NCBI RefSeq assembly: GCF_036014215.1 | Contig: NZ_CP107921.1 | Location: forward strand, 977,501 to 1,041,500 | Direction: 5' to 3' | Length of the DNA: 64,000 nucleotides | Origin: Streptomyces sp. NBC_00440 | Lineage (GTDB): Bacteria; Actinomycetota; Actinomycetes; Streptomycetales; Streptomycetaceae | In this document: piece by piece, positions 3,196-31,797 of the stretch | Layout: every line of letters begins with the position of its first letter | Numbering within the stretch: the first letter of the stretch is position 1 | Notes under the pieces: generated by a model | Databases searched by the model: none | What the model saw: the letters and a program-made list of their open reading frames with translations, nothing else | Told to the model about the DNA's origin: nothing | Translations under genes and position numbers: made by a program

Positions 3196-4080
3196 TCAGT
3201 GGTGCGGGTCGTCCTCCGGGATCACGTATCCGGCGCAGTAGTCGACGCCCGGTTCCGGGGCCACCGGGTCGCCGGTGTCGGCGTCGGTGCAGTAGGCGCT
3301 GAACACCTCGCCCGCGGTGAGCGGTTGCAGTCGGCCTCGGTGGAGCCGCCAGCCGCGGACCGTGTCATCCTGGCCCGGCACCGTCGTACGGATGACAATC
3401 CCGCCGGGGCTTTCCAGAGCCATACCGGCGGCGAGCACGGTCACGAAGGCCATGCCTTCCGCGCGGTCGAGCCGGGTGCGGGGGCCTTCGCCCCTCTCTG
3501 CGTGCAGGACGGCGAGGAGCGGTTCGTCCTCGGCGGGAATGCTGCAGACGAGATGGTGGACCCCGGGGCCCGCCCCGTCCAGCAGGCTCTTCAGTGCGCG
3601 GGAGGCCCGGTCGAACGATGTCGCGCCGATGTCCTGGCCGCAGTCGGCGCACTCCCCCGCTTCGGCCAGCACCATCGTCGCGTACTCCAGAGTGGCCCGG
3701 CACACTGCGGCGTTGATGAGGAGCGGGACCAGCCGGTCGATGGGCTGTCCGGTGTACTGGACGGTCGCCCCGTCCGCCGCGATGCCCGCGGTGAAGCGCG
3801 TCCGGCTGTCCGCCGAGTCCGGGTCGAGCCCGGCCGCCGTGCAGAACTCCTCGTACTCCTCGGGGTCGAAGAGAGCGACCGTCGTGTGCACCTCCTCGGC
3901 GGTGAGGGCCCGCAGCAGGCCCTCGACCTGCTGGAGGTAGGCCGTGTGGTCGTCGAAGGTGAAGGTGCGGTAGCGCCGCATCACCGCGAAGTCCTGCTCG
4001 TCGGCCAGCAGGCCGACGGTGCTCGGTGCTTCGCGGCGCAGTGCGTGCCGCATGGATCCGGTCCGGTGTGTCTGCGCCAT
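3196..4080 (-). CDS. conserved hypothetical protein
   Basis: A 294-residue soluble protein of unknown function. The ATG at 4080 is preferred over an upstream in-frame start because CAGGGGGA sits directly before it. The N-terminal part contains FAVMRRYRTFTFDDHTAYLQQVE and an acidic stretch. A CADC pair near residue 145 could be a metal site, but only two cysteines are close together. No signal peptide or membrane segment is visible. I do not recognise a named family; it looks like a Streptomyces lineage protein. It ends head-on to ptsI, and the MFS gene lies 22 bases upstream on the same strand, so the two may form an operon. Confidence 0.75.
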   Translation of the reverse strand: MAQTHRTGSMRHALRREAPSTVGLLADEQDFAVMRRYRTFTFDDHTAYLQQVEGLLRALTAEEVHTTVALFDPEEYEEFCTAAGLDPDSADSRTRFTAGIAADGATVQYTGQPIDRLVPLLINAAVCRATLEYATMVLAEAGECADCGQDIGATSFDRASRALKSLLDGAGPGVHHLVCSIPAEDEPLLAVLHAERGEGPRTRLDRAEGMAFVTVLAAGMALESPGGIVIRTTVPGQDDTVRGWRLHRGRLQPLTAGEVFSAYCTDADTGDPVAPEPGVDYCAGYVIPEDDPHH

Positions 4081-4102
4081 GACTCCCCCTGAGCGCGCTC
4101 GA

Positions 4103-5407
4103 TCAGTGCTCACTCACAGTAGCCGGGGGCACTGACAACGCCGTTGCGGACAGCCGGGTCCGCACCAGACGGCTCTGCGCCGCGCAGGTCGCTACGACAC
4201 CTGCGGCGAGTACGGGCCATCCCAGCGGACCTGCGGCGATCACCGCGGTGACGAGCAGGGGCCCGCCGCTGCGCTGGGCGGACTGGGCGAGCCCGTGCAC
4301 CCCGAGGTAGGCGCCCTGCGCCTCGTCGTCGGCGAGGGTGACCGAGAGTTCCCAGGAGGCCGTGGCGTGCAGCATCTCGGCGACGGTCAGCGCGATCGCG
4401 GCGAGGATCAGCGCGGTGACGGCTGCCCAGGTGCCGCCGTGCGACGAAGCGGTCATCGCGAGGCAGCCGGCCGTGAAGGAGCCGGCGAGCGGCATCAGGA
4501 GGGTGCGGGCCGTCTGCGGGGTGGAGGCGAACCGGCTGAGCGGCACCTGGCAGAAGACGACCATGACGCAGTTGAGGACCATCAGCAGGGGCGCCAGGCC
4601 GTGCGGGGCCGTGGTGGCGTGGACGATCCACAGCGGCATCCCGACCTGCAGCACGGCGTCGTCCAGGAAGAGCATCGTCTCGGTCGCGGTGAAGAGGAGG
4701 TACGTGCGGTCGCGCCAGGGGTTGGGCGGCGGGGCGGCGAGGGCCGGTTCCTCCGAACCTGTGACGACCGGACCCGTACCGGCCGAACCCGTGACGACCC
4801 GGGAGGGAGCCGGCGGTTCGGCGCAGCGCACGGTGAGGGCCGCGACCACGGCGTACGACACGGCGTTGCCGATGAGCAGGGCGTAGTAGGCGTGAGTGGT
4901 CCCGACGCCGAGGGTGACGGCCGCGGCGAGGCCGCCGATGGCCCAGCCCGCGTTGGAGACCGTGCGCTGGACCGCCTGGTAGCGGATGCGGTCGGCTCCG
5001 CCCACCCGGGCCGAGTAGAGCTTGGTGAGGACGTTGGACCCGCGGTCGCCGAGGCTGCCGACGGCGGAGTAGAGGAGCATCAGCGTGAAGCTGTGTGTGG
5101 TGAGCAGCGCGAGCAGGGCCAGTGCCTGCTGGACCTGGGCGGCCACCAGGACGCGGGTGAGGGGGAACCGGTCGGCGAGATGGCCGGCGAGCGGTGCGCC
5201 CGCGATGCCGGCGGCCCCCGAGACCCCCATGAGGATGCCGACCTGGGCGACCGAGAGGCCGGCGACAAGAGTGAAGTAGAGCGCGGCGGCGCCCATCCAG
5301 AGTCCGGTCCCCGCTTTGTTGATGAGGGCGATCCAGAGCATCCGGCGGCCGTCCTCGCCGCCCGGGATCCGTTCGTACAGTGCGGCTCGGCGCCGGCTCG
5401 TTTTCAT
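4103..5407 (-). CDS. MFS transporter (probable drug or metabolite exporter)
   Basis: A 434-residue major facilitator. About 12 hydrophobic segments are visible, with the typical loop 2-3 motif AGAPLAGHLADRFPLTR near residue 70. A Pro/Ala/Gly-rich cytoplasmic loop separates the two halves. The start ATG at 5407 has GGGGGAA just upstream. It is divergent from a MocR-type regulator, with only 45 bases between the start codons and a perfect 16-base inverted repeat in the gap, so the regulator very likely controls it. The substrate cannot be inferred. Confidence 0.85.
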   Translation of the reverse strand: MKTSRRRAALYERIPGGEDGRRMLWIALINKAGTGLWMGAAALYFTLVAGLSVAQVGILMGVSGAAGIAGAPLAGHLADRFPLTRVLVAAQVQQALALLALLTTHSFTLMLLYSAVGSLGDRGSNVLTKLYSARVGGADRIRYQAVQRTVSNAGWAIGGLAAAVTLGVGTTHAYYALLIGNAVSYAVVAALTVRCAEPPAPSRVVTGSAGTGPVVTGSEEPALAAPPPNPWRDRTYLLFTATETMLFLDDAVLQVGMPLWIVHATTAPHGLAPLLMVLNCVMVVFCQVPLSRFASTPQTARTLLMPLAGSFTAGCLAMTASSHGGTWAAVTALILAAIALTVAEMLHATASWELSVTLADDEAQGAYLGVHGLAQSAQRSGGPLLVTAVIAAGPLGWPVLAAGVVATCAAQSRLVRTRLSATALSVPPATVSEH

Positions 5408-19171: not shown

Positions 19172-19609
19172 TCACCCTCCTGCGGTGAGCCCGCTCCGCG
19201 GGGCCGTCGCGAGGTGGGCGCCGACCCGCTTCACCATCAGCGTCATCTCGTACGCCACCAGGCCGACGTCGGAGTCCGCGTCGGACAGCACGGCCAGGCA
19301 GCTGCCGTCGCCGGCCGCCGTGATGAAGAGGAAGGCCTCGTCCAGCTCCACCACGGTCTGGCGGACCTTGCCGGCCTCGAAGTGGCGTCCGACGCCCTTG
19401 GCCAGGCTGTGGAAGCCGGAGGCGACGGCCGCCAGGTGCTCGCCGTCCTCCCGGGTCAGGTCCTTCGAAGTGCCGGTCGCCAGGCCGTCTCCCGAGAGGA
19501 CCAGCGCCTTGCGGATGCTGCCGACCCGGTCGACGAGCTCGTCGAGGAGCCAGTTGAGCTCGCCGGGGCCCCCTGCGGCGTTATGTGCTGCTGCGTTCGG
19601 TACGGTCAT
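19172..19609 (-). CDS. cvnB: conservon roadblock/LC7-domain protein CvnB
   Basis: A 145-residue roadblock/LC7 protein (LNWLLDELVDRVGSIRKALVLS at the start of the domain; GSCLAVLSDADSDVGLVAYEM at its end). In conservons it is thought to regulate the CvnD GTPase in the way MglB acts on MglA. GGAGGGG precedes ATG 19609, and ATGA overlaps the stop of cvnA. Confidence 0.94.
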   Translation of the reverse strand: MTVPNAAAHNAAGGPGELNWLLDELVDRVGSIRKALVLSGDGLATGTSKDLTREDGEHLAAVASGFHSLAKGVGRHFEAGKVRQTVVELDEAFLFITAAGDGSCLAVLSDADSDVGLVAYEMTLMVKRVGAHLATAPRSGLTAGG

Positions 19610-22404
19610 CGACCGGTCCCCTCCGATGTGGTTCCTGGTGCTGTGTCGGCCGGTCCGGTGCCGACTGCGGCTGATTCTGCCGAGTCCTGTGCGGAGTTGT
19701 CGCGGCGGCCCCGCTGCCAGCCACGCTGGAGCGATGCCATCCGGCTGCGTACCTCGTCCGCGTCGCGTTCGTCGTCGTCGTCCGCGGCATCCGGCTCGAC
19801 TGCGGGCACACCCCTCAGCTGCGGGGCCAGATTCGCCTGGCGCACCCGGCGCGGCAACCCGCCGGGGCCTGCCACCGGGGGGCCGGTACGCGGGGGCTGG
19901 GGCTGCGGGGGCCGGGACTGTGGGCGGTCCGACTGTGGGCGGTCGGTCTCAGCCCTCGACGGTTCGGCCCGGCGCGGTTCGGTCCGGCGCTGCGGGAGTT
20001 CGGTCCGGCGCGGTTCGGCCCGCCGGGGCTCGCGCTGCGGGAGTTCGGTCCGCCGGGGCTCGGTCCGCGACGGTTCGGTCCGTGACGGTTCCGGGATGTC
20101 GACCCTGCGCCCGTGGTCCGAGACCAGAGTCGGCTGTCCGGGTTTGCGGCGCCGGGGCAGTCCGACCGGGCCTGCGGGACGTGTCGCGCTCTGCGGCGCC
20201 GCTCCTTCGTCGGGGGTCTGCTGGTGCTGGTCGGGCGCCGGGGCCACTGCGCGGTTGCGGAAGATCCCGCCCGGCACGCTGTCCTCGTCGTCCAGGTCCG
20301 CCGTGTCGTCGAAGGTCAACGCGTCGACGGGCGGCTCCAGTTCGACCGGCCCGTCGATCACGGACACCGGTGTACGACCCGCGGCCGGCACCGGCGCGAG
20401 CCCGGAGCGCGATCCGGACCGGTGGGCGGACCGGCGGTCGGAGCGGAATCCGGCGCCATCGGCCCCGGATCCGGCGGCCGTGCCGTCGGCGTCCGGGGCA
20501 TCGGTGTCCGGAGCATCGGTGAGCAGCGCCACCGGGATGAAGATGACGGCGGTGGTGCCGCCGTACGGTGAGGGCTGGAGCGAGACCCGCACGTTCTGCC
20601 GCTGCGCGAGCCTGCTCACCACGAAGAGGCCGAGGCGGTCGGTGTCCGACAGCTCGAACTCGGGGGTCTCGGCGAGACGGAGGTTGGCGTCGAGCAGCGC
20701 GTCGGGCGCGATCCCGAGTCCGCGGTCGTGGATCTCCAGGGTGAAGCCGTTGGCGACCCGCTCGCCCAGCACCTGCACCGCCGTGTGCGGAGGTGAGAAC
20801 ACCGTGGCGTTCTCCAGGAGTTCGGCGATGAGGTGCGTGAGGTCGGCGACGGCCGGGCCGCCGACCCCGATCCTCGGCAGCCGCCGTACCTCGACCCGCT
20901 CGTAGTCCTCGACCTCAGCGACCGCCGCGCGTACCACGTCCATCAGCTGGACCGGCTTGCGCCACTGCCGGGACGGGGAAGCTCCGGAGAGGATCACCAG
21001 GCCCTCGGCGTGCCGCCGCATCCGGGTGGTGAGGTGGTCGAGCCGGAACAGGTCGGCGAGTTCCTCGGTGTCCTCCGTACGGCGCTCCATGGCGTCCAGC
21101 AGCGTCAGCTGGCGGTGCAGCAGGACCTGGTTGCGGCGGGCCAGGTTGACGAAGACGTCGGAGACCCCGCGGCGCAGGTCCGCCTGGCGCACGGCTGCTT
21201 CGACGGCGGCCCGCTGGACGGTGTTGAGGGCCAGGCCGACCTGGCCGACCTCGTCCTTCGCGTACTCCAGGCGCGGCGCCTCGGTGTCGATGTCGACCTG
21301 CTCCCCGGCGGCGAGCCGGCGCATCACAGCGGGCAGCCGCACCCCGGAGACCTCATGGGCCTCCTTGCGCAGCCGGCTGAGGTCGCGGATCAGTTCACGC
21401 CCGATGCGCACGGACACCACCAGGGACACCAGCAGTCCGCCGATGCCGAGCAGCGCGGCGATCGCGGCCTTGGCGAAGACGCCGACGGCGGCGGGCCTCA
21501 CCCGGCCCAGGAAGTCCTTGCGGGCGTCGGTTGCCAGCGTGTCGAGATGGCTGAGCGTGCGGTCGGCGTCCGTGCTCCAGCGGGACGCTGATCCGGTGAT
21601 GGTGGAGCTGCCGGGGTTCTTGTCGATTGCCGTGGATTCGGCGGTGCGTACCGGGATGGTCGCGGGTCCGCTCCAGTAGGCGTTGAACGCGTCGCTCGCC
21701 CCGCCCGGCAGCGAGGGCAGGCTGACCGTGTAGTACATCTTGCGGGCGGTGACGAGGTCCGAGATGTCACGCAGGTCCCTGGAGTCGAGCCGTCCGGATG
21801 TCAGGGCGGAGCCGAGGAGCGCGTCCTCCCGCGAGAGGGACTCACGGGCCCGGGTGACACCGACGAGGCCGCGCGCCTCCTTGTCGAGGCCGGAGTTCTG
21901 CAGGGTGGGCAGGCCGGCCAGGAAGTCGAGCGCCTGGTCGCAGAGCCGGTTGTACTGGTCGTACGCCTCGCGGCGGGTCACCTCGTGGTCGCCGGCGTTC
22001 TGCCGCAGCGAGCCGAGTCCGGCGAACCCGTCCAGCACCGTACGCAGCTGCCGTTCGGAGTTCCCGCCCAGCGCGGAACGGGCGTCGCTCCGCGCTGCGC
22101 CACGGCGCAGCTGGGCGACGGCCGCATCGGTGTCGGCGCGCTGGGTGCGCAGTTCGGACTGGATGTCCGAGGCTCCCGGATCGACCAGCTGGCGCAGGGT
22201 CAGGGAACGTTCCTTCTCGACCGACTGGAGGGAAGCGGTGAGCGGGTGCGCCACGCTCTTGTAGACGGTTCCCGTGCGCATCAGTTGCAGGGCGTCCCGG
22301 CCGGTGACGTAGACGGAGAACGTCCAGATCGCCGTCAACGCGACAAGTGGGACCAGCAACAGCGCCACGATCTTCCTGCGGATGGACTTCCCGCGAAAGC
22401 GCAT
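19606..22404 (-). CDS. cvnA: conservon sensor histidine kinase-like protein CvnA
   Basis: A 932-residue membrane sensor. An N-terminal membrane segment (LLLVPLVALTAIWTFSVYV) and a second one near residue 330 flank an extracytoplasmic NIT-like helical sensing domain. A HAMP-like linker, dimerisation helices and a HATPase domain follow (ENATVFSPPHTAVQVL; HDRGLGIAPDAL; LGLFVVSRLAQRQ). The C-terminal about 250 residues are disordered and Pro/Arg-rich with repeats. Start ATG 22404 is preceded by GGGGGAGG. It heads the cvnABCD operon. Confidence 0.93.
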   Translation of the reverse strand: MRFRGKSIRRKIVALLLVPLVALTAIWTFSVYVTGRDALQLMRTGTVYKSVAHPLTASLQSVEKERSLTLRQLVDPGASDIQSELRTQRADTDAAVAQLRRGAARSDARSALGGNSERQLRTVLDGFAGLGSLRQNAGDHEVTRREAYDQYNRLCDQALDFLAGLPTLQNSGLDKEARGLVGVTRARESLSREDALLGSALTSGRLDSRDLRDISDLVTARKMYYTVSLPSLPGGASDAFNAYWSGPATIPVRTAESTAIDKNPGSSTITGSASRWSTDADRTLSHLDTLATDARKDFLGRVRPAAVGVFAKAAIAALLGIGGLLVSLVVSVRIGRELIRDLSRLRKEAHEVSGVRLPAVMRRLAAGEQVDIDTEAPRLEYAKDEVGQVGLALNTVQRAAVEAAVRQADLRRGVSDVFVNLARRNQVLLHRQLTLLDAMERRTEDTEELADLFRLDHLTTRMRRHAEGLVILSGASPSRQWRKPVQLMDVVRAAVAEVEDYERVEVRRLPRIGVGGPAVADLTHLIAELLENATVFSPPHTAVQVLGERVANGFTLEIHDRGLGIAPDALLDANLRLAETPEFELSDTDRLGLFVVSRLAQRQNVRVSLQPSPYGGTTAVIFIPVALLTDAPDTDAPDADGTAAGSGADGAGFRSDRRSAHRSGSRSGLAPVPAAGRTPVSVIDGPVELEPPVDALTFDDTADLDDEDSVPGGIFRNRAVAPAPDQHQQTPDEGAAPQSATRPAGPVGLPRRRKPGQPTLVSDHGRRVDIPEPSRTEPSRTEPRRTELPQREPRRAEPRRTELPQRRTEPRRAEPSRAETDRPQSDRPQSRPPQPQPPRTGPPVAGPGGLPRRVRQANLAPQLRGVPAVEPDAADDDDERDADEVRSRMASLQRGWQRGRRDNSAQDSAESAAVGTGPADTAPGTTSEGTGR
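19918..20092. repeat. degenerate 15-base repeats inside cvnA
   Basis: Within the 3' third of cvnA, degenerate units such as GGTTCGGTCCGGCGC recur over 19958-20092, and a 15-base unit ACTGTGGGCGGTCCG occurs in tandem just upstream (19918-19947). They encode Arg/Glu/Pro repeats (RRTEP, RRAEP) in the disordered tail. The period is a multiple of three, so copy number can change without frameshift. Confidence 0.65.
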
Positions 22405-22781
22405 GGCCTCCCCCAGCTCAACCCCGCCCGGCGGGGGTGGTGTTCCGTCAACAAACGGCGTGAGCCTACTACTGCCGCACAAGCAACTCGAAGGGACGTC
22501 CGGACTATTTTCGGCCGCCCGTAGGGGAGTTGATCATGCCATGTCCTGGTATCCCAGCAGATCGTCTTCCCTGATCCGGTCAGATAACCCTGACAGGACA
22601 GCACTTTCCACACCTTCTCAGATGGCTGGAATTCTATGGGTTGCGGGAATCTTTGACGGCAGTTCTTCGTCCTTCCGTACGAGGGGCGCACCACGGGCGG
22701 GGACGCTTGAACCGACCCAAGCCGGGCATCCGTTCTGGAGTCGGACAGCGCCGAGGCGTGAAGGTCGAGGGTGAAGAGAGC
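22405..22781. other. divergent promoter region between cvnA and the membrane gene
   Basis: About 375 bases with no gene. On the minus strand TAGAAT (22636-22631) is a fair -10 for cvnA, without a good -35. On the plus strand TTGACG near 22660 could serve the small membrane gene. The region is a little AT-richer than its surroundings. Confidence 0.3.
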
Positions 22782-23210
22782 ATGACCATCGAAGAGGGCG
22801 AGGCCCCCCTGCGGACGCTGTGGGTCGAGGAGCCGGTCGGACGGTACCGGCTGCCGGATCCGGTGCGCGGAAGCGCGGTGCGTGCCGTGCTCATCGTGTC
22901 CGTGACGCTGATCCAGGCGGTGACGGCCTTCCTCTCCACCGTGGCGGGCTCCTGGCTGGCCTTCCCGATGGTGCTGAGCAGTGTGGCGAGTACGGTCGTC
23001 GCGACCTGGGCGGTGCTGGACGTCTGGATCACCCGGCAGGTGTGGAACCAGCGCCATGGTGTGACGTCCGTTCCCAGCAGCACCGCCCGCCGACTCCGCA
23101 AGGAGCGGCGGGCGGCCCGGCGTTCGGCGCGGCGTTCGGCCCCTCGGCAGGAGGGGGACGCCGAGCGGATACGTACGAAACGCTCCGCCCGGCTGTCGCC
23201 CCAGCCCTGA
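22782..23210 (+). CDS. small two-helix membrane protein, unknown function
   Basis: A 142-residue protein. Two hydrophobic segments lie near residues 32-75 (VRAVLIVSVTLIQAVTAF; SWLAFPMVLSSVASTVV), followed by a very basic tail rich in RRSARRSA-type repeats. ATG 22782 has GAAGAGAG upstream. The family is not recognised. Its stop codon TGA lies in the first unit of a 15-base tandem repeat, and it converges on the SMC-like gene. Confidence 0.7.
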   Translation: MTIEEGEAPLRTLWVEEPVGRYRLPDPVRGSAVRAVLIVSVTLIQAVTAFLSTVAGSWLAFPMVLSSVASTVVATWAVLDVWITRQVWNQRHGVTSVPSSTARRLRKERRAARRSARRSAPRQEGDAERIRTKRSARLSPQP

Positions 23211-23297: not shown

Positions 23298-23351
23298 GGC
23301 CAGGACGACTGAGACGGCCAGGACGGCTGAGACGGCTGAGACGGCTAGGAC
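23298..23351. repeat. six tandem 9-base units reaching the SMC-like gene stop
   Basis: Six 9-base units (GGCCAGGAC, GACTGAGAC, GGCCAGGAC, GGCTGAGAC, GGCTGAGAC, GGCTAGGAC) follow directly on the 15-base array. The last unit covers the stop codon of the SMC-like gene. No separate hairpin terminator is obvious between the two genes. Confidence 0.88.
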
Positions 23352-26300
23352 GGCTGGGCGCTCTGTGCCGCCTGGGCCCGTTTGAACATCCGGGTCGCGG
23401 TGATCTCGCCGTGCACCTGCTCCCCACCGGGGTCCTGCTGCGGGAGACCCGGCCGCAGATGCTCCTCCACGCTGATGTACTTCAGCCCCGCCCTGAGATC
23501 CGCGTCATTGCGCAACCTGATGACCAGCGGGAATTCGGCGAGCGCCGTGGTGTCGAAAAGCCCCGTCGTATAGAGCAGCTGGACGCCGAGAGCATCGGAG
23601 ACGGCGCGCTGGAGCTCCAGCAGATAGGTGGCGTTCGCCCGGCCGATCGGGTTGTCGAGGAAGAGCGTGCCCGCGTGCCGGTGCCTGTCCCGGCCACGGT
23701 CGTTGCTGCGCAGGGCGGCCATCGTGCAGTAGAGGGCGATGGCCGCGGTGAGCAGCTGTCCGCCGGAGAACACATCTCCCATCTGCCCCACCGGGACCCG
23801 CTCGGCCCGGAGCACCGCGTCCGGCTTGAGGATCTCGACGGCCACGCCCCTGGGTTCGAGCGCCGCCTGGACGGCCCGCAGCAGCAGTGACATCCCGTCC
23901 CTGCGCAGATCGGAGTTCTTCTTCAGGGCCGCCCTGGTCGCCTCGTCGACGACCTCACCGAGCCGTTCGGCAAGGGTGGCCTGGTCGGGCTCCTCGAAAC
24001 GGATGCGCAGGAACTCCTGGCCCGACCACTCCCCGAGGCCTTCGGGCAGCCGGGAGAGCCGCTGGGCGGAGCGCAGTGTGGTGAGCGCGGACTCCACCAG
24101 GCCGCGCAGCCGGTCGACGATCGAGTCCCGGTTGCGCTCCAGCTGCTCCAGTTCGTCGGTGAGCACCCGCAGCCGGGGCGCGAAGGCCGCCGCCCACTTC
24201 TCGGCGTGCTCCGGGAGCGCGGCGGCGGGCAGTTCACGGATCTGCTGGCGTGCCGGGGTGCGGACCTGCTCGTAGCGGGTGGCGTTGGCATGCCGTACGA
24301 GGATGTCACTCGCCTCCCGCACGGCCGACTCGGCCGCCGACAGGTCGCCGGCGCAGGCACGCAGTGAGCGGCGGGCCTCAGCTGCCGACTCCCTGGCCTC
24401 CTCCTGGCTGCCGGGATACGGCTCGGGCGGCGCGGATTCGGCGCCCTCGTCGTCCTGGTGCGGGTCGCGGAGCAGGTCCCGCAGCAGGGCGGCCGACTCG
24501 TCGAATCCGCCCGCCGCGTCCTCCGACGCCCGGTGGGCGCGCAGCAGTTCGGCGTGGGCCGCGCGGGAGGTCTCCAACGCGTCGGTGCGGGAGCCCAGTT
24601 CTGCCGTGGCGGTCCGCAGCAGGGTCTGTGCGGCGTCCGCGTCGGCCGGTACCAGTGCGTCGGGCAGCTCGGTGTGGGCGTCCGCACCGTCCGCGGGCGC
24701 GAGCCGTTCGGCCTCGCCGCGCAGCCGGCCGAGCTGTTCGCTGGCGGTCGACGCGCGTGTCTCCAGCATCTGGACGAGCGACTCCGCGCGGGCCGCGGCT
24801 GCCTGCCGGGACGGGCCGTCGGCGCCGTCGGTCGATTCGAGCAGCTGGGAGGCGCGGGTACGGACCTTGTTGGAGAGCCGGTCGAGCTCGGCGCGGGCCG
24901 CGCTCTCGTCGCTCTCGGCCCTGGCCTGTTCGGCCCGGAGGTCGGCTCCGACGCCGACCTTCTCGTACAGCTGCGATGCGGCACGGTAGGCCTCCCGCAG
25001 GGCCGGCAGTGCGGAGCGCTGTGCGCCCGCTTCCGGTTCGGGCAGGTCCTCGGGCACTCCGGCGATTTCGGACCGTTCGGCCCGCAGCGCGCGGGCGGTG
25101 CGGCGCGCGTCGTCGGCGGCCCGCTGGGCGGCCCTGCGGTCCTCGTCGGCGGCCCTGGCACGCTCCAGGCAGGCCGCGGCCCGGGTTTCCGACTCGGCCG
25201 CCTCGTCGCCCAGTTCGCGCAGGGTGACCTGCCAGCCCGCCCGTTCGCGGAGCCGGAAGGCCAGTCCGGAGAGCGCGTCGGCCACTCGCCGGGCGCGCTG
25301 TGCGGCGTCCTGGCGTTCGTCGCGCACCCGGGCGGCGTCGGCGGCAGCCTCGTCCGCCTCGGCCCGGGCCGTACGGGCTTCCTCAAGTGCGGCGGTGGCG
25401 GTCCCGGCCGCTTCCTCCGCGCTGCTCGCGGCAGCGGCCAGTTCGTCGAGCGTCCCGGGCGGGCAGGCGGACCGCCAGGAGCCGAGCCGGGCGGCGAGCG
25501 TCCGGTCGCCGCCCAGCCGGGCAGCGAGCGTGCGGATCTCCTCGTCGCGCCGGCCCGCACGGGAGCGCAGCGCCTGCCGTTCCTCGTCGGCGGCGTGCTC
25601 GTCGTGCATGGCCGGGTTCGGCGGTACGAGGAACACGTCACCGTCGCCTGTTCCGGACGGGCCGGGGCCCGGTACCGGTGCCAGCAGCGCGGACGCGGTG
25701 CCGACGGCGACCGCGGAGCGCGGGAGCAGGGCGGCCCCGCTCAGCACGGAGCGGGCCCGGCTGTGTGCGGCCGGGTCGGTGATCACCACACCGTCGACCA
25801 GCTCCGGGCGGGCGGCCAGCACCGCCGCGTGGTCGGCGGGGTCCACCGCCTGGGCGAGATAGCGCCAGCCGGGCAGTGCGGGGATACCGTGCTCGCCCAG
25901 GAATTCGACGGTGGCAAGGACATCGGGTCCCGGCGGCAGCAGCCCACCGTCACCCAGTGCGCCGAGGATGCGGGAGTCGTCCGCGGCGGCGGTGCGCAGC
26001 TCGAAGAGCTGGCGTTCGGCCGATGCGACGCCCCCGTCGAGAAGTTCCTTGAGCTCTTCCGCGTTGCGGTCCAGCTCGGCTGCGGTGAGCCGGCCGCTGG
26101 TCAGGGTGCCGGCATGACTCTCCGGTGCGCGGGCGGCTGCGGCGGCCTGTGCGTCCTGCGGCCCGGCGGTTCCGGAGGCCCCTGCCCCGGTCTCGTCGGC
26201 CTGGCCTGCGCCGGTCCCTCTCCGGGGCCGGTCCGCTTCCTGCGGCGTGGATCCGCTGCGGGGCTGGGGCAGCCCCGCAGTCGTGACCGATGCCGGTGTT

Positions 26301-28186
26301 GATGCCGGTGCAGATACCCATGCGGATACGGGTGTTGATGCCGGGGGCAAGCTCAGCAGTTCGGCCAGCCGGGGCTCCGCCGCGATGGAGTCGGCGGTGC
26401 GCAGCTCCGCCTCGTACGCCTGCTCGGCGGCCCGCGCAGCGTCCGCGGCCCGGGCGGCGGCGAGGTCGGCCCGGCTCTCCCGGGAGGCGGCCTCCCTGGC
26501 CTCGTCCGCCGTGGTGCGCGCCTGCTCGCGAGCCGTGTCCCAGGCGGCGACCGCTGTCTTCTCCGCGTCGCTGGCCGCCAGTGCGGCGCGCGCAGGATCC
26601 GCGTCGGGCGCGGTGTCGTCCAGCCAGCCCGCGCGAACGGCCTCGGAGGTCTCCTGGCCGACCTCGGTGAGGCGCTGGCGCAGGTGCCCGGCCTCGCTGC
26701 GGGCGCGCTGTGCCTCGGTCGCCGCGGCGGTGGCGTCGCGGTGGGCGGCCTCGCCCGCCGTCTGGAGCACGGCAGCGCGCTCCTCCTCCTCGTTGGCGAG
26801 CTGCTCGCCGCTCTCGGCCGCCGAGTGGAGTGCGCGGACCAGGTCGGCCGCCGCGGTGGCCCGGGCGGCCAGGGCCGGGGCGGCGTCCCGCTCGGCCTCA
26901 CGGATGGCCACCGCGACCCGGGCGGACCGGTCGGCTGCCGCGCGGTGCCGCAGCACCGCCTCGGCGGCCTGCCAGGCCGAGTGGAACGTCCGCGCGTCGG
27001 CCAGCTCCCTGCGCTGCGCCGCTGCGGACTTCTCGGCGACGGTGAGCGCCAATGAGGCGTGCCGGTAGGCCAGTTCGGCGGCGATCAGCGCGCTGCGGCC
27101 GCGGGCGTCCTCGGCCTGCGTGACGGTGTGGGCGGCGGAGGTGACCTGCTGGGCGAGGTCGGACGCGCGGCCCCGCTCGTCGGCGGCGCGGGCGGAGAGC
27201 CTGCGGGCGAGGGTGCGCGTACGGCGCTCGGCCCCCGCGTGGACGTCCCTGGACCGCGAGCGCGCCGCCGCGGCGTCGACGATGCGGCCGAGCAGATCGA
27301 CCGAGCCCGCGGTGAAGTCACGCTCCGCGGTGAGTTCGGCGCGGCGGCCGAGCTTGCTCCCGAAACTGCCGACGAGGTCGGCCAGTCCGTCCGTGTCCCG
27401 GGTGTCGGTGACGGCCCGCAGCAGCAGATCCGTGAAATCGGAGTCCTTCTTGACCGCGAAGAGACCGGCTGCCTCGCCCTCGTCGGCGTTCATCTCGCGC
27501 TGGTAGCGGAAGAGTTCGGGGTCGAGGCCCAGATCGCCGAGGTGTTCGTTCCAGCGGTCGTGGATCTCCTCCCAGTGGACGTCCAGATGGGGATAGAACT
27601 TGCCGGCCTCGGTGATCGCGTCGCGGAAGCCCTTCATGGTGCGGCGCCTGCCCCGCGCCCCGGAGACACCCTCCACCGGCGGCCGTACGGTGGTGGCTTC
27701 GGCGACCGGAAGGGAGTCGAGGCTCAGCCCGGGGCCGGGCCTGAACGAGTACCAGGCCTCGGCGAACTTCCGCGGGTCGTTGGAGACCTGCCGGCCGCGC
27801 CACTCGCTGGCCTTGCCGACCACGACGAGCTCACCGGTGAGGGTGTGCTGCCACTCCAGGGCGACATGGCCGCAGTCGTCGGCGAGCAGGAACTTGCGCA
27901 GAACGCCGGAGCTGGCGCCGCCGAGTGTGTTGCGGTGGCCCGGCAGCATCACCGAGAAGATCAGCTTCAGCAGGACCGACTTGCCGCCGCCGTTCTCCAG
28001 GAAGAGGACACCCGCGGGCGCGGGGCGGCGCGGCGGGCCGACCGGTTCCTCCTCGAAGAACTCCGCCTGGGCCGGAGCCGGGTGGGGCACGGGGGCGCCC
28101 ACTCCCCGCAGGTCGAGCACGGTGTCGGCGTAGCGCGCACCGGCAGGTCCGATGGAGTAGAGGCGGACCCGGGACAGCTCGTACAT
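23345..28186 (-). CDS. SMC-like ATPase of a MukB/MksB/JetC-type complex
   Basis: A 1613-residue SMC-architecture protein. An N-terminal ATPase half has a P-loop-like LFLENGGGKSVLL (residues 61-73). Long Ala/Glu/Arg-rich coiled coils flank a central globular hinge (about 790-920, GIPALPGWRYLAQAVDPAD; VDGVVITDPAAHSRARS). The C-terminal ATPase half has signature FSGGQ (about 1473) and Walker B LFLDNPIG (about 1508). A Pro/Ser/Thr linker interrupts the first coil near residue 625. Such ATPases load on DNA with a kleisin and a winged-helix partner, encoded here just upstream. Both nucleotide motifs deviate from consensus. Longer than most MksB/JetC proteins. Confidence 0.85.
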   Translation of the reverse strand: MYELSRVRLYSIGPAGARYADTVLDLRGVGAPVPHPAPAQAEFFEEEPVGPPRRPAPAGVLFLENGGGKSVLLKLIFSVMLPGHRNTLGGASSGVLRKFLLADDCGHVALEWQHTLTGELVVVGKASEWRGRQVSNDPRKFAEAWYSFRPGPGLSLDSLPVAEATTVRPPVEGVSGARGRRRTMKGFRDAITEAGKFYPHLDVHWEEIHDRWNEHLGDLGLDPELFRYQREMNADEGEAAGLFAVKKDSDFTDLLLRAVTDTRDTDGLADLVGSFGSKLGRRAELTAERDFTAGSVDLLGRIVDAAAARSRSRDVHAGAERRTRTLARRLSARAADERGRASDLAQQVTSAAHTVTQAEDARGRSALIAAELAYRHASLALTVAEKSAAAQRRELADARTFHSAWQAAEAVLRHRAAADRSARVAVAIREAERDAAPALAARATAAADLVRALHSAAESGEQLANEEEERAAVLQTAGEAAHRDATAAATEAQRARSEAGHLRQRLTEVGQETSEAVRAGWLDDTAPDADPARAALAASDAEKTAVAAWDTAREQARTTADEAREAASRESRADLAAARAADAARAAEQAYEAELRTADSIAAEPRLAELLSLPPASTPVSAWVSAPASTPASVTTAGLPQPRSGSTPQEADRPRRGTGAGQADETGAGASGTAGPQDAQAAAAARAPESHAGTLTSGRLTAAELDRNAEELKELLDGGVASAERQLFELRTAAADDSRILGALGDGGLLPPGPDVLATVEFLGEHGIPALPGWRYLAQAVDPADHAAVLAARPELVDGVVITDPAAHSRARSVLSGAALLPRSAVAVGTASALLAPVPGPGPSGTGDGDVFLVPPNPAMHDEHAADEERQALRSRAGRRDEEIRTLAARLGGDRTLAARLGSWRSACPPGTLDELAAAASSAEEAAGTATAALEEARTARAEADEAAADAARVRDERQDAAQRARRVADALSGLAFRLRERAGWQVTLRELGDEAAESETRAAACLERARAADEDRRAAQRAADDARRTARALRAERSEIAGVPEDLPEPEAGAQRSALPALREAYRAASQLYEKVGVGADLRAEQARAESDESAARAELDRLSNKVRTRASQLLESTDGADGPSRQAAAARAESLVQMLETRASTASEQLGRLRGEAERLAPADGADAHTELPDALVPADADAAQTLLRTATAELGSRTDALETSRAAHAELLRAHRASEDAAGGFDESAALLRDLLRDPHQDDEGAESAPPEPYPGSQEEARESAAEARRSLRACAGDLSAAESAVREASDILVRHANATRYEQVRTPARQQIRELPAAALPEHAEKWAAAFAPRLRVLTDELEQLERNRDSIVDRLRGLVESALTTLRSAQRLSRLPEGLGEWSGQEFLRIRFEEPDQATLAERLGEVVDEATRAALKKNSDLRRDGMSLLLRAVQAALEPRGVAVEILKPDAVLRAERVPVGQMGDVFSGGQLLTAAIALYCTMAALRSNDRGRDRHRHAGTLFLDNPIGRANATYLLELQRAVSDALGVQLLYTTGLFDTTALAEFPLVIRLRNDADLRAGLKYISVEEHLRPGLPQQDPGGEQVHGEITATRMFKRAQAAQSAQPS

Positions 28187-28234
28187 GGCGGCGGACTCTC
28201 GTCGTTGTGGTGCGGGATCTGGCTCTGGGGCTGG

Positions 28235-29134
28235 TCAGGAGTGGAAGGGGAGTCCTGCGTCGGCGGTCAGTTCGAGGTCGTCGGTCCCGGAGGGCGGCAG
28301 CAGCGTGGCCGTTCCGTCGGTCACCGGCACGACGCCCAGGTCGAGCAGCTCGGCCATGGCGGCGCTGCCCGCCATGTCGCGGACCTGGAGCTGGTAGCGG
28401 GCGGTGGTGCGGTACGCGCCTCCGGCGTCGTCGCCGGTGCGCTGCAGGAACCCCGAATCCGTGAGGAAGACAACGGCCTTGGCGACGATCCCGGTGGTGG
28501 AACCGGCCAGCCGCCTGGCGTCCTTGGTCGCTCCGGTGGAGCTGCGCCTCGCGTAGATCCGCCAGGCGGCTTCGAGCCCGGGGGCATCGGTGGCCGGGTC
28601 GCTGTTCTCGCCCTGCTCATCGGCCCGCTCCTCCAGCCGGCGGCAGGCCTGGCGGACGAACGCGTCGACGCCATTGACCGTGATCCGGCCGATGTACCCG
28701 TCGTCGGCGAGGTCTTCGGGGCGCGGGAAGGACATGGCGGCGACGGCGAGATGGGCCAGCCCGTGCAGGAAGCGGTCGGCGGAGTCGGCGGCGGCGCGGC
28801 GCGCGTAGTCGCCCATGCGTACGGCGAAGACCGAGTCCTCCCCTGCGGCGACGGCCATGCCCGCCCGGGTCGATACCTCCAGGACGACCAGGCCGAGCCC
28901 GGTGGCGACAGCGTCGGCGAGCCGGGCGAAGGCGGGCGCCTCGCGGTAGCGGCGGAGCAGCTCCGCGTACTCGGCGTCACGGGCGGGCAGCAGCTTCGGC
29001 TGGAGTCCGAAGGCGACGAGGCGCGCCGCGTCGGCGGCGTCGGCCGGGGTCACCGCCGGGCCGGCCGACGGCACGGCGGCGCCGCCCTGGTCGGGCTCGC
29101 TCCACGCGGTGTGCTCGGCGTGGGTCTCGCTCAC
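28235..29134 (-). CDS. MksE/JetB-like accessory subunit of the SMC-like complex
   Basis: A 299-residue soluble protein between the kleisin-like and SMC-like genes. Its middle part (LEAAWRIYARRSSTGATKDAR; VFLTDSGFLQRTG) looks like a winged helix, and the position matches MukE/MksE/JetB in the conserved F-E-B order. The assignment rests on gene order, size and this pattern rather than strong sequence similarity. Gaps of 61 and 48 bases to its neighbours make a single operon likely. Confidence 0.6.
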   Translation of the reverse strand: MSETHAEHTAWSEPDQGGAAVPSAGPAVTPADAADAARLVAFGLQPKLLPARDAEYAELLRRYREAPAFARLADAVATGLGLVVLEVSTRAGMAVAAGEDSVFAVRMGDYARRAAADSADRFLHGLAHLAVAAMSFPRPEDLADDGYIGRITVNGVDAFVRQACRRLEERADEQGENSDPATDAPGLEAAWRIYARRSSTGATKDARRLAGSTTGIVAKAVVFLTDSGFLQRTGDDAGGAYRTTARYQLQVRDMAGSAAMAELLDLGVVPVTDGTATLLPPSGTDDLELTADAGLPFHS

Positions 29135-29195
29135 AGCTGCTGCTCCTCGGTCGGTGTCGTTCTGTGCTGCTCCCCGGGTCCTGGCTGCCGGAGGT

Positions 29196-30722
29196 TCATG
29201 CGGACTCCGTACGGCCCGCGGCCATTCCGACGGTGTCCAGGAGGGCCGTCCCCACTATCAGATCCGCACCGCCGAACTCGGAGTCGTCCAGATCGGTGCC
29301 GTCGTCCACGGCGAAGAGCAGGCGTTCCTCACCCTGCCGGTACGCGGTGCCGACCGGCGGGCTGGCCGCGTGGATGGCCAGCAGGGCGACCAGATACGGC
29401 AGTTCCGGATCCCGCAGCCGGGCTTCGGCCAGCAGACCGGAGAGCCGGCGCGGGGCGTCGTGCTCCAGGTCGAGCAGCTCCATCGCGGCTGCCAGCTGCT
29501 CCTCGCTGAACCGGCTGTCGTCCGGTGTCGCGATGAGGTCGGGCTCGGGCATCTCGGCGCCCAGGTGCTCCCGCTCGGCCGGCGGCGTCAGCAGAATGTC
29601 GACCAGGTCCCCGACCCGTACCGACACGGGGGTACGCAGCCCGGTGCCCCGGGCGAAGAACGCGTCGGTGACCCGGATGGCCTGCTCCAGCGGCAGTGGC
29701 AGTACGGGGGCGACCAGCTGTCCGTACAGATCCAGTCCGGAACTCGCCGTCGGCGGGGCGAATGCCTGCCGGTCCTGCTCGGCGCGGAAGAGCGGCCCGG
29801 CCTCCAGCAGCCGGGACTGGAGCTGGGTGTGGCGGCGGATGCAGTCCTTGACGATGTCGACGAGCTCGGCGGCGCGCCGCTTGTGCTCGGGCTCCTCCGT
29901 CTCGTCCCTGGCCTTGCGGATGTTGGTGAGGATCGCGTTCTCATGGCGGTAGCGGTCGGCCACGTGGTCCAGGGCTTCGTCGATCATGTCGGGCACGGTG
30001 CGCAGCCAGTCGACCGCGCGGACGTTGCGCCGGGTCGCTTCCAGGGTCCTGCGCAGCGTCTCGGCGTACTGCACGGTCCGGTAGCGGGCCTGCTCCGCCG
30101 CGAGCTGGGCGTCGGCGAGCCTGCCCCGGCTGATCAGCACCTCCAGCTTCACCTCGGCGGCGATCTGTGCGCTGGTGACGTCCGTGTCGAGGGCGCCCAC
30201 CAGGACGTTGACCGCTTCGTCGGTGGTGCGCAGATAGACGGTGCCGCCGTGACCCGGCACCTCCTCGACCAGCTTGAAGTCGTAGTCGCGGCGGACGTAC
30301 TCCCCGTCGGGACCGAACGTGCCGTAGACCGCGCGGAACCCGCGGTCCACGCTGCCGACATTGATCAGGTTCTCCAGCACCCAGCGGGCCACCCGCTCGT
30401 GCTCCTCCGCCGGGCGGCGCGGGGCCTGGGCCGCGACGCGCGGCAGCAGCCTGGCCACTATCTGGTCGTGGTCGGCCCCGGTGTCGAAGTCCATGTTGAG
30501 CGTGACCAGGTCGATCGCGGCGAGCGCCACCTCGGCCATGGCGTAGACCGTGTACTCGCCGGCCAGATTGGCCTTGCGCACATCGAGGTCGTGCAGTGGG
30601 GCGGTGCACGCGAGCGCGCGCAGCCGCCGCGCCAGCCCTTCGTCGGCGGCCGGGCCCGGTGCGGGGCGCGGCCCCGCGCTGAGCTGGGGCGGAACGAATT
30701 CCGTCGGGGCAGGCGAAGTCAC
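29196..30722 (-). CDS. MksF/JetA-like (kleisin-type) subunit of the SMC-like complex
   Basis: A 508-residue, mostly helical protein, first gene of the operon. The N-terminal part (EGLARRLRALACTAPLHDLDVRKANL; GEYTVYAMAEVALAAIDLVTL) and a central coiled region (QYAETLRRTLEATRRNVRAVDW; VDIVKDCIRRHTQLQSRLLEAG) resemble MukF/MksF/JetA proteins. It would bridge the SMC heads. GTG 30722 is preferred over upstream starts because a promoter -10 (TAATCT) ends 7 bases before it, implying a leaderless mRNA. TTG 30752 would add 10 residues. Confidence 0.65.
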   Translation of the reverse strand: MTSPAPTEFVPPQLSAGPRPAPGPAADEGLARRLRALACTAPLHDLDVRKANLAGEYTVYAMAEVALAAIDLVTLNMDFDTGADHDQIVARLLPRVAAQAPRRPAEEHERVARWVLENLINVGSVDRGFRAVYGTFGPDGEYVRRDYDFKLVEEVPGHGGTVYLRTTDEAVNVLVGALDTDVTSAQIAAEVKLEVLISRGRLADAQLAAEQARYRTVQYAETLRRTLEATRRNVRAVDWLRTVPDMIDEALDHVADRYRHENAILTNIRKARDETEEPEHKRRAAELVDIVKDCIRRHTQLQSRLLEAGPLFRAEQDRQAFAPPTASSGLDLYGQLVAPVLPLPLEQAIRVTDAFFARGTGLRTPVSVRVGDLVDILLTPPAEREHLGAEMPEPDLIATPDDSRFSEEQLAAAMELLDLEHDAPRRLSGLLAEARLRDPELPYLVALLAIHAASPPVGTAYRQGEERLLFAVDDGTDLDDSEFGGADLIVGTALLDTVGMAAGRTESA

Positions 30723-30729
30723 GTTGCAC

Positions 30730-30759
30730 AGATTAGGTCCTCGCACTGACAACGGTCGA
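30730..30759 (-). promoter_or_regulatory. probable promoter of the SMC-like operon
   Basis: On the minus strand TCGACC (4 of 6 to the -35 consensus) and TAATCT (-10) are spaced by 18 bases. The -10 ends 7 bases before GTG 30722, so the transcript should start at or next to the start codon. Coordinates are approximate to one or two bases. Confidence 0.45.
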
Positions 30760-31008
30760 AACGGCGCGGATGGGGCGCCTGTCCACCGGGCCCGCTCGGC
30801 CTGCGGCGGCTAGGCTTCGTGCTCCCCGGACCGGGCCCGGATCCGCCCGTACGCACCTCCGGGGCCACGACTGTCCACCCCGTGAACCACCCCCGGACCA
30901 TGCCCTGTCCACCGTCCGGTGCACCCAGCAACCACCTTCGGTCCGCCCCGGATCCCGCCCCGGATCCCGCCCCGGTGCGAACCCCGTCCCGCTCCCGGAG
31001 GGAGCCGT

Positions 31009-31797
31009 ATGAGCACGACCGCCCCGACCGCCGCCGCCCCGGCCGTGGTCGATCTCAACGCCGACCTCGGTGAGGGGTTCGGCCGCTGGACGCTCACCGA
31101 CGACGAGGCGCTGCTGTCCGTCGTCACCAGTGCCAATGTCGCCTGCGGTTTCCACGCGGGCGACCCGTCGACCATGCGCCGGGTCTGCGAACTGGCCGCC
31201 GCTCGCGGTGTACGGATCGGCGCCCAGGTCTCGTACCGCGACCTGGCGGGTTTCGGGAGGCGCGCCATGGATGTCCCCGCCGGTGAGCTGGCCGACGAAG
31301 TCGCCTATCAGATCGGCGCGTTGGAGCTCTTCGCGCGGGCCGCCGGCAGCCGGGTGTCGTACGTCAAACCGCACGGCGCGCTCTACAACCGCACCGTCCA
31401 CGACGAGGAGCAGGCGGGCGCGGTCGTCGCGGGCGTGCGGCTCGCCGGGGGCGCGCTGCCGGTGCTCGGGCTGCCCGGCTCCCGGCTACTGGCGGCAGCA
31501 GCGGACGCGGGGCTGGCCTCGGTGCCGGAGGCCTTCGCCGACCGCGCGTACACCGCGCAGGCCACACTCGTTCCGCGCAGCAGGCCCGGGGCGGTGGTGC
31601 ACGAGCCGGAGGCGGTGGTCGCCCGGGCGCTGGCCATGGTGCGCGACCACTCGGTGGCCGCGGTCACCGGGGAGCCCGTCACCGTCGACGCGCGGTCGCT
31701 CTGTCTGCACGGCGACACCCCGGGGGCGGCGGACATCGCACTGCGGGTCCGCCGGGAACTGCTCGCCGCCGGTGTGGTGCTGGAGCCCTTCGCATGA
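31009..31797 (+). CDS. pxpA: 5-oxoprolinase subunit PxpA (LamB/YcsF family)
   Basis: A 262-residue LamB/YcsF protein, one of three subunits of the ATP-dependent bacterial 5-oxoprolinase that opens 5-oxoproline to glutamate. It starts with the family signature VDLNADLGEGFGRW and contains SANVACGFHAGDPSTM and YVKPHGALYN, which carry metal- and substrate-binding residues. GGAGGGAG precedes ATG 31009. pxpB and pxpC follow in one operon. The enzyme removes damaging spontaneous 5-oxoproline. Confidence 0.95.
   Translation: MSTTAPTAAAPAVVDLNADLGEGFGRWTLTDDEALLSVVTSANVACGFHAGDPSTMRRVCELAAARGVRIGAQVSYRDLAGFGRRAMDVPAGELADEVAYQIGALELFARAAGSRVSYVKPHGALYNRTVHDEEQAGAVVAGVRLAGGALPVLGLPGSRLLAAAADAGLASVPEAFADRAYTAQATLVPRSRPGAVVHEPEAVVARALAMVRDHSVAAVTGEPVTVDARSLCLHGDTPGAADIALRVRRELLAAGVVLEPFA

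Follow-up and report, generated by a model that had tools for sequence, protein, structure and literature searches.

A review proposes that MukBEF and MksBEF may descend from defence complexes built on structural maintenance of chromosomes (SMC) ATPases, in the case of MksBEF by loss of the nuclease subunit JetD (PMC10586767). In Streptomyces, Wadjet systems called with DefenseFinder lie towards the chromosome ends (PMC10482375), and the parts of that paper covered here mention no core locus lacking JetD. Here we describe jetABC, an operon on the minus strand of Streptomyces sp. NBC_00440 (contig NZ_CP107921.1), within a window of 64,000 nucleotides (positions 977,501 to 1,041,500) that is the whole stretch of DNA analysed. 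Its proteins match Wadjet type III profiles, jetD is absent, the operon is kept through almost all Streptomycetaceae sampled, and the sequence upstream of jetA has the form of a DNA-damage promoter, which suggests a defence machine turned into a genome-maintenance tool. New here are the core status of the operon, the pattern of JetD loss, and the damage-type promoter; among open-licence PMC papers (subscription papers and supplements not included), no title or start of abstract reports that Streptomyces has a core JetABC lacking JetD, or that such a locus has a damage promoter, and term searches of PMC13118837 and PMC13121528 return no mention.

The operon runs in the order kleisin, KITE, and SMC, as a preliminary description made from the sequence of the window had proposed, with intergenic gaps of 61 and 48 bp. 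In PADLOC, the JetA3 profile PDLC00567 matches the 508-aa protein (E 6.3e-189) and the JetC3 profile PDLC00588 matches the 1613-aa protein (E=0, 1385 bits). No PADLOC model matches the 299-aa JetB, which is 30–53% identical to the protein in the JetB position of JetD-bearing loci and 57% identical to that of one cut locus (L039); comparison of structure models gives it a KITE-like fold, as expected of a Wadjet type III JetB. The AlphaFold model of JetA has a predicted local distance difference test (pLDDT) score of 77.9, and its best structural matches, all weak, are MukBEF/MukEF chains of MukF size. MukF- and MukE-type chains are the best or near-best matches of the JetA and JetB models. At the sequence level, the three proteins have no match in NCBIfam and none over cut-off in Pfam; with phmmer and with profile searches of the PDB, neither JetA nor JetB has a credible match, and those of JetC are confined to coiled coils or short P-loop regions.

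By its PADLOC matches, jetABC groups with Wadjet type III rather than with MukBEF/MksBEF. The preliminary description had named a MukBEF/MksBEF/JetABC type, of which the JetABC part is supported by the PADLOC type III assignment. With regard to MksB, MksF, or MksE membership, JetC3 and JetA3 are the only PADLOC models that match proteins of the operon; the trait shared with MksBEF is that of an SMC–kleisin–KITE operon without MksG/JetD. The chromosomal Smc is encoded elsewhere, with an SMC_prok_B match over cut-off at C1:6068838-6072644, and the jet locus is not among the four matches of that model. MukBEF/MksBEF is not favoured as the sequence family of the operon, for want of NCBIfam matches and of Pfam matches over cut-off.

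The PADLOC matches, orthologues in nearly all sampled Streptomycetaceae, and low ratios of nonsynonymous to synonymous substitution (dN/dS) indicate that jetA, jetB, and jetC are not chance open reading frames (ORFs). Specifically, dN/dS is about 0 to 0.32 in eight core pairs per gene, and 0.17 to 0.68 in five pairs of accessory loci, which hold paralogues of the core system. The jetABC core genes are under purifying selection.

No JetD is encoded at the locus, where the gene next to jetC is a convergent gene for a 142-aa protein. PF09983, PADLOC JetD3 (PDLC00594), and DUF2399 (PF09664) likewise match nothing in the 8.68-Mb genome, although a nuclease of another family would escape these models. 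Control genomes do give matches: C. glutamicum with both PF09983 and JetD3, B. subtilis with PF09983 (one of the PF09983 matches is over cut-off), and six genomes with DUF2399 (none over cut-off). A JetD fused to the operon or neighbouring it was considered and rejected, and the initial view of a JetD-less complex embedded in the chromosome of an organism that also has Smc is confirmed.

The same holds for related genomes. All 20 core loci surveyed, from 10 genera, encode the complete JetABC set, and when nine JetD proteins served as tblastn queries, none of these loci gave a JetD over 3.0 to 8.7 kb past jetC. JetD stands beside JetC in 22 of 26 accessory loci (20 of 23 in the main set and two of three in named genomes, S. 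benahoarensis and S. afghaniensis; L078–L080, from a contig scan, enter this tally only). The four others either end inside jetC (L039, L049, L078) or are broken (L048). Thus a JetD next door in relatives, which had been named as the observation that would speak against a JetD-less system, is found for the accessory paralogues and for none of the core orthologues. Fourth genes were identified as JetD3 by PADLOC in seven of the first nine accessory loci, all seven that were scanned; those of L029 and L030 were identified by eye, and both are also JetD3 hits in the genome-wide search. Across 101 Streptomyces genomes, strong JetD3 matches (E <=4e-44) occur in nine, exactly the nine with a second JetA, indicating that the core complex lives without JetD3. 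At E <=0.01 the count is 16 genomes, seven of them with weak matches (E 2e-7 to 7e-4) to part of the profile; at six of these seven (L052–L057; G028 is not among them) no JetA, JetB, or JetC of the jetABC kind lies nearby.

Two accessory loci look like decayed Wadjet III: L048, with a JetC open frame of just 493 aa and no JetD, and L050, with JetA and JetC matches in one frame and no JetB match. Beside the accessory Wadjet III of L030 lies a gene whose 1541-aa product carries AAA_23, SMC_N, and SbcC Walker B domains (L030:14123-18748, minus strand), perhaps another SMC-like defence gene.

A JetA at least 82% identical to that of the window is present in 98 of 101 Streptomyces genomes, one of them (G081) with a fragment, and is missed in G050, G073, and G079. 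At 75% identity or more, JetA is present in 119 of 121 Streptomycetaceae genomes and 16 of 17 genera. The two exceptions are G553, without any copy, and G498, the sole genome of its genus in the family sample, where the only copy is an accessory one of 26% identity. The order sample gives the core copy in 132 of 132 genomes of the same genus and in 0 of 15 genomes of two other families, two of which have a copy of 33–45% identity, and the phylum sample gives matches in 17 of 396 genomes, 12 of them Streptomyces and the other five 29–40% identical (the genus, family, order, and phylum samples overlap). Accessory copies are patchy in Streptomyces, with nine of 101 genomes. The core locus is mostly single-copy, mostly vertically kept, and Streptomycetaceae-wide; the branch initially suspected to be Streptomyces-specific does belong to the Streptomyces group, and extends beyond the genus to the family.

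The two trees place the core within JetD-bearing lineages. In a JetA tree of 42 rows (quick IQ-TREE; L042 and L050 excluded), the 21 core rows form one side of a branch with SH-aLRT 98. Next to them is a group of 12 JetD-bearing rows, one of which is cut, and among the farther rows JetD is missing only from the broken L048 and the cut L049. In a JetC tree made with FastTree from 36 rows, the core forms a single clade (support 100), with the JetD-bearing L038 as its sister at a support of only 60, an arrangement that the JetA tree does not show; L028, L029, L040, and L041 stand outside this pairing (95), followed by L030, L032, and L043–L045 (100). Both trees are rooted at midpoints and contain long branches. 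The nesting of the core clade among JetD-bearing lineages suggests that JetD was probably lost once, and the existence of PADLOC JetD models for Wadjet types 1, 2, and 3 suggests that JetD probably predates type III. A single loss of jetD is thus probably the simplest account, and a Wadjet type III ancestry of core jetABC is well supported by profiles and trees.

The ATPase of JetC is intact in its motifs. Walker A, signature, and Walker B are in place in the two split halves of the 1613-aa protein, as first described, and all 19 full-length core JetC share the signature VFSGGQ and the Walker B sequence LFLDNP. (Core JetC of L060 and L072, with open frames under 1300 aa, and accessory L031, L039, L042, L048, L049, and L050 are outside the motif counts and the JetC tree.) Most SMC proteins have Asp–Glu at Walker B, where the Glu is catalytic, whereas JetC has Asp–Asn. 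The sequence LDNP is found in 36 of 36 JetC compared, 19 core and 17 JetD-bearing, indicating that the Asn is a trait of the type rather than a sign of decay. The presence of Asp–Asn–Pro in all 36 proteins, where a catalytic Glu would be expected, raises the question of the mode of ATP hydrolysis. Few positions are conserved differently between core and accessory proteins (one in JetA, none in JetB, and 11 in JetC), which gives no sign that a docking surface has decayed. JetC also has an insertion of about 75 positions ahead of the presumed hinge (residues ~626-700); 11 of 19 core JetC have residues at 24 or more of these positions, and 17 of 17 JetD-bearing JetC at no more than five.

Immediately upstream of jetA is a predicted RecA-NDp/PafBC-type promoter with zero mismatches to tTGTCRgtg-8 nt-TannnT, the consensus of the LexA/RecA-independent damage promoter (PMC5656591). 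It ends 7 nt before the GTG start, and the jetA mRNA is possibly leaderless. In 26 non-redundant core upstream regions, the only invariant columns are TGTC, G, TA, and T of this motif, while in the adjoining CGTTTCG element six of seven columns are conserved at 85% or more and one at 58%. Of the 41 core rows, 39 have the relaxed motif TGTCVG-N10-TANNNT ahead of jetA, equivalent to 37 of 39 genomes (L002/L077 and L021/L074 are the same genomes, and the rows are related), compared with a mean of 0.015 and a maximum of 1 in 200 shuffles of the 41 rows. With a position weight matrix (PWM) made from the 19 other strict sites of the genome, a score of 8 or higher is reached by 35 of the 41 core rows versus 0.25% of random 230-mers. 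The distance between motif and start codon is odd in L068, L069, L071, and L073, probably through a wrongly assigned start codon. LexA control of jetA is not supported; within the 286 bp between jetA and its divergent neighbour, even the closest sequence to an SOS box has mismatches at three of 10 fixed positions.

The strict motif occurs at 20 sites in the genome (L085–L104), and the reversed control gives 0. Two of the sites are in the window, where 0.05 are expected and one of 100 shuffles gives two. Genes of repair, replication, or nucleotide metabolism follow 12 of the 19 sites other than that of jetA: ung, a rarA/mgsA-like gene, ruvC, a PD-(D/E)XK nuclease gene, RecD2-HHH, uvrB, dnaX, rpsF-ssb, dnaN, thyX, recA, and a DinG/YoaA-like helicase gene, the last cut by the end of its locus and below the NCBIfam cut-off. 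The other seven precede genes for a 305-aa protein, a WGR protein, phoH, prsW, an ABC permease, a SWIM protein, and an ECF sigma factor. The genome has pafA, a gene for a WYL protein, and one for a PafC-type (PafC-HTH) WYL protein in a single locus, and the 20 strict sites are a candidate PafBC regulon in Streptomyces. This genus has documented RecA-NDp promoters: S. rimosus recA is cited as a case, and S. coelicolor SCO6735 has such a promoter and is UV-inducible (PMC5087735, PMC9411070). Mycobacterial PafBC is activated by single-stranded DNA (ssDNA) (PMC11804915).

The coordinates of the operon, its motifs, and its surroundings are collected below. Upstream, jetA diverges from a LamB/YcsF gene, and beyond the convergent small gene downstream of jetC lies the first gene of a conservon-like cluster. 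The second strict promoter of the window precedes the ORF for the 305-aa protein, a candidate for a new DNA-damage gene.

Features of the jetABC locus and other features of the window (window coordinates)
Feature	Coordinates	Strand	Details
jetA-like kleisin gene	29196..30722	-	508 aa, GTG start; PADLOC JetA3
jetB-like KITE gene	28235..29134	-	299 aa, tandem winged-helix
jetC-like SMC ATPase gene	23345..28186	-	1613 aa; PADLOC JetC3
JetC Walker A	27965..28000	-	LENGGGKSVLLK, residues 63-74; identical in 19/19 core JetC
JetC ABC signature	23738..23773	-	VFSGGQLLTAAI, residues 1472-1483; identical in 19/19 core JetC
JetC Walker B	23621..23668	-	TLFLDNPIGRANATYL, residues 1507-1522; D-N form
JetC insertion	~26087-26311		residues ~626-700, ahead of presumed hinge
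RecA-NDp/PafBC-type promoter of jetA	30730..30752	-	TTGTCAGTG-N8-TAATCT; ends 7 nt before jetA GTG
Conserved CGTTTCG element	30757..30763	-	right upstream of promoter core; columns -12 to -6
Small protein gene	22782..23210	+	142 aa, probably membrane; converges with jetC; no Pfam match
LamB/YcsF (PxpA-like) gene	31009..31797	+	PF03746, 6e-97; diverges from jetA
Histidine-kinase-like gene	19606..22482	-	nitrate-sensing domain; PF08376, PF02518; first of conservon-like cluster
Second zero-mismatch promoter	4116-4138	-	2 nt before 305-aa ORF
ORF for 305-aa protein	3196-4113	-	no Pfam match

We consider it somewhat better than an even chance that jetABC is a domesticated Wadjet that now acts as a damage-inducible loop extruder on the chromosome. 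The damage-type promoter, absent from the preliminary description, points to genome maintenance under damage rather than to routine segregation. In the mechanism that we propose, a type III Wadjet operon would have lost jetD no later than in the common ancestor of Streptomycetaceae, most simply in a single event, and what was left, JetABC, would have become a core locus. DNA damage would expose ssDNA, and PafBC would switch on jetABC along with recA, uvrB, and others. Dimers of JetC, bridged by JetA and joined by JetB into an SMC–kleisin–KITE ATPase, would load on chromosomal DNA and extrude loops without cutting it; having no JetD, the complex cannot cut and would be safe on the chromosome. 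Looping might hold, compact, or disentangle damaged sister DNA while RecA, RuvC, and related proteins carry out repair. We infer the induction half of this mechanism from promoter sequence and the loading and extrusion half from homology. A bolder form, that Streptomycetaceae made an anti-plasmid SMC into a dedicated, LexA-independent, PafBC-switched, nuclease-free SMC of the DNA-damage response, a functional counterpart of Smc5/6 that works with RecA on damaged linear multigenomic chromosomes, is possible at rather less than even odds. The weights given to the several readings are not mutually exclusive.

Several observations weigh against the domesticated, damage-inducible complex. The strict motif is present in only 10 of 39 core genomes, the rest keeping TGTCVG and TANNNT with the GTG part incomplete; L061 and L062 lack even the relaxed motif (one-mismatch versions are visible by eye), and six core rows (L058–L063) score below 8 on the PWM. 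An initial search reported in PMC9380542 suggested that S. venezuelae does not conserve the PafBC motif of M. smegmatis; the 20 strict sites argue that the NBC_00440 genome does. Core jetA has an internal stop or is split in a few genomes (G087, G552, G562), and a JetB search repeated on the five genomes without core JetA found one only in G498, 36% identical and in the same accessory locus, leaving four genomes without JetA and JetB, so that the locus may be dispensable. Among these four, completeness is 82% for G050 and 78% for G079, and the assemblies of G073 and G553 each have over 600 contigs. MksBEFG of C. glutamicum, a relative with a nuclease, has no role in chromosome folding (PMC7083940). 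Finally, the promoter type is not confined to the core, since a PWM score of at least 8 is reached upstream of jetA in eight of 23 accessory operons (L031, L032, L033, L034, L038, L039, L043, L045; L078–L080 are not in this set). The scoring loci all have JetD except the cut L039, and L033 lacks the TA of the −10.

These eight operons bear on when the regulation arose. They suggest that damage-type regulation may predate the loss of JetD, in which case it may have made the later shift in function easier; they are not by themselves proof of a role in repair, and some true Wadjet systems may be damage-inducible. They also agree with another reading, that JetABC is still a defence system that compacts small circular DNA without cutting it, thereby silencing or blocking plasmids and phage circles, with the promoter serving as an alarm for incoming ssDNA. 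Human Smc5/6 acts in this way on viral circles, and both the type III ancestry and the response of mycobacterial PafBC to ssDNA fit. We nevertheless regard this reading as unlikely, given that the known effector has been lost and that the core, mostly single-copy distribution differs from that of patchy defence loci such as the accessory copies.

We hold it decidedly unlikely that JetABC is constitutive and organises the chromosome as a condensin in the manner of P. aeruginosa MksBEF, engaged in routine segregation in hyphae or spores with the promoter incidental. The JetD-less architecture and the presence of Smc in the genome would suit such a role; what argues against it is that only motif positions are invariant upstream of jetA in the non-redundant rows and that the strict motif is common to recA, uvrB, ruvC, and dnaX. 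That JetABC works with a nuclease or topoisomerase that has escaped recognition and whose gene lies elsewhere in the core genome, which the few differently conserved positions would allow, is very improbable, as the three JetD family models match nothing in the genome, albeit that they would miss a nuclease of another family.

Returning to a domesticated Wadjet, core jetABC provides a family-wide case that has a place on a tree, can be compared with JetD-bearing paralogues from within the genus, and has a promoter that hints when the complex is needed. Two questions become testable in one organism: how a nuclease-free JetABC acts on the chromosome, and whether Streptomyces has a PafBC-type damage response, the latter left open by PMC9380542.

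Comparison with known systems places jetABC as follows. Wadjet type III shares with it the JetA3 and JetC3 profiles, the A–B–C gene order, the ATPase motifs, and a homologous JetB, but has JetD, which core jetABC lacks, and is patchy where jetABC is core. MksBEF of Pseudomonas is likewise a nuclease-free SMC–kleisin–KITE complex that exists beside Smc and probably derives from JetABCD (PMC10586767), whereas jetABC has a PADLOC type III ancestry, is a family-wide core locus, and carries a damage-type promoter. EptABCD of Mycobacterium and MksBEFG of Corynebacterium are also actinobacterial SMC-like complexes; unlike jetABC, they have four genes including a nuclease subunit and are linked to plasmids (PMC10586767, PMC7083940). 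MukBEF resembles jetABC in that MukF- and MukE-type chains are similar to the JetA and JetB models, and differs in that the jetABC proteins fall outside the NCBIfam and Pfam families at cut-off and share their genome with Smc. The RecA-NDp/PafBC regulon, in turn, is matched by the zero-mismatch promoter of jetABC and by the PafBC-type locus of the genome; the literature passages covered name no SMC complex as a member.

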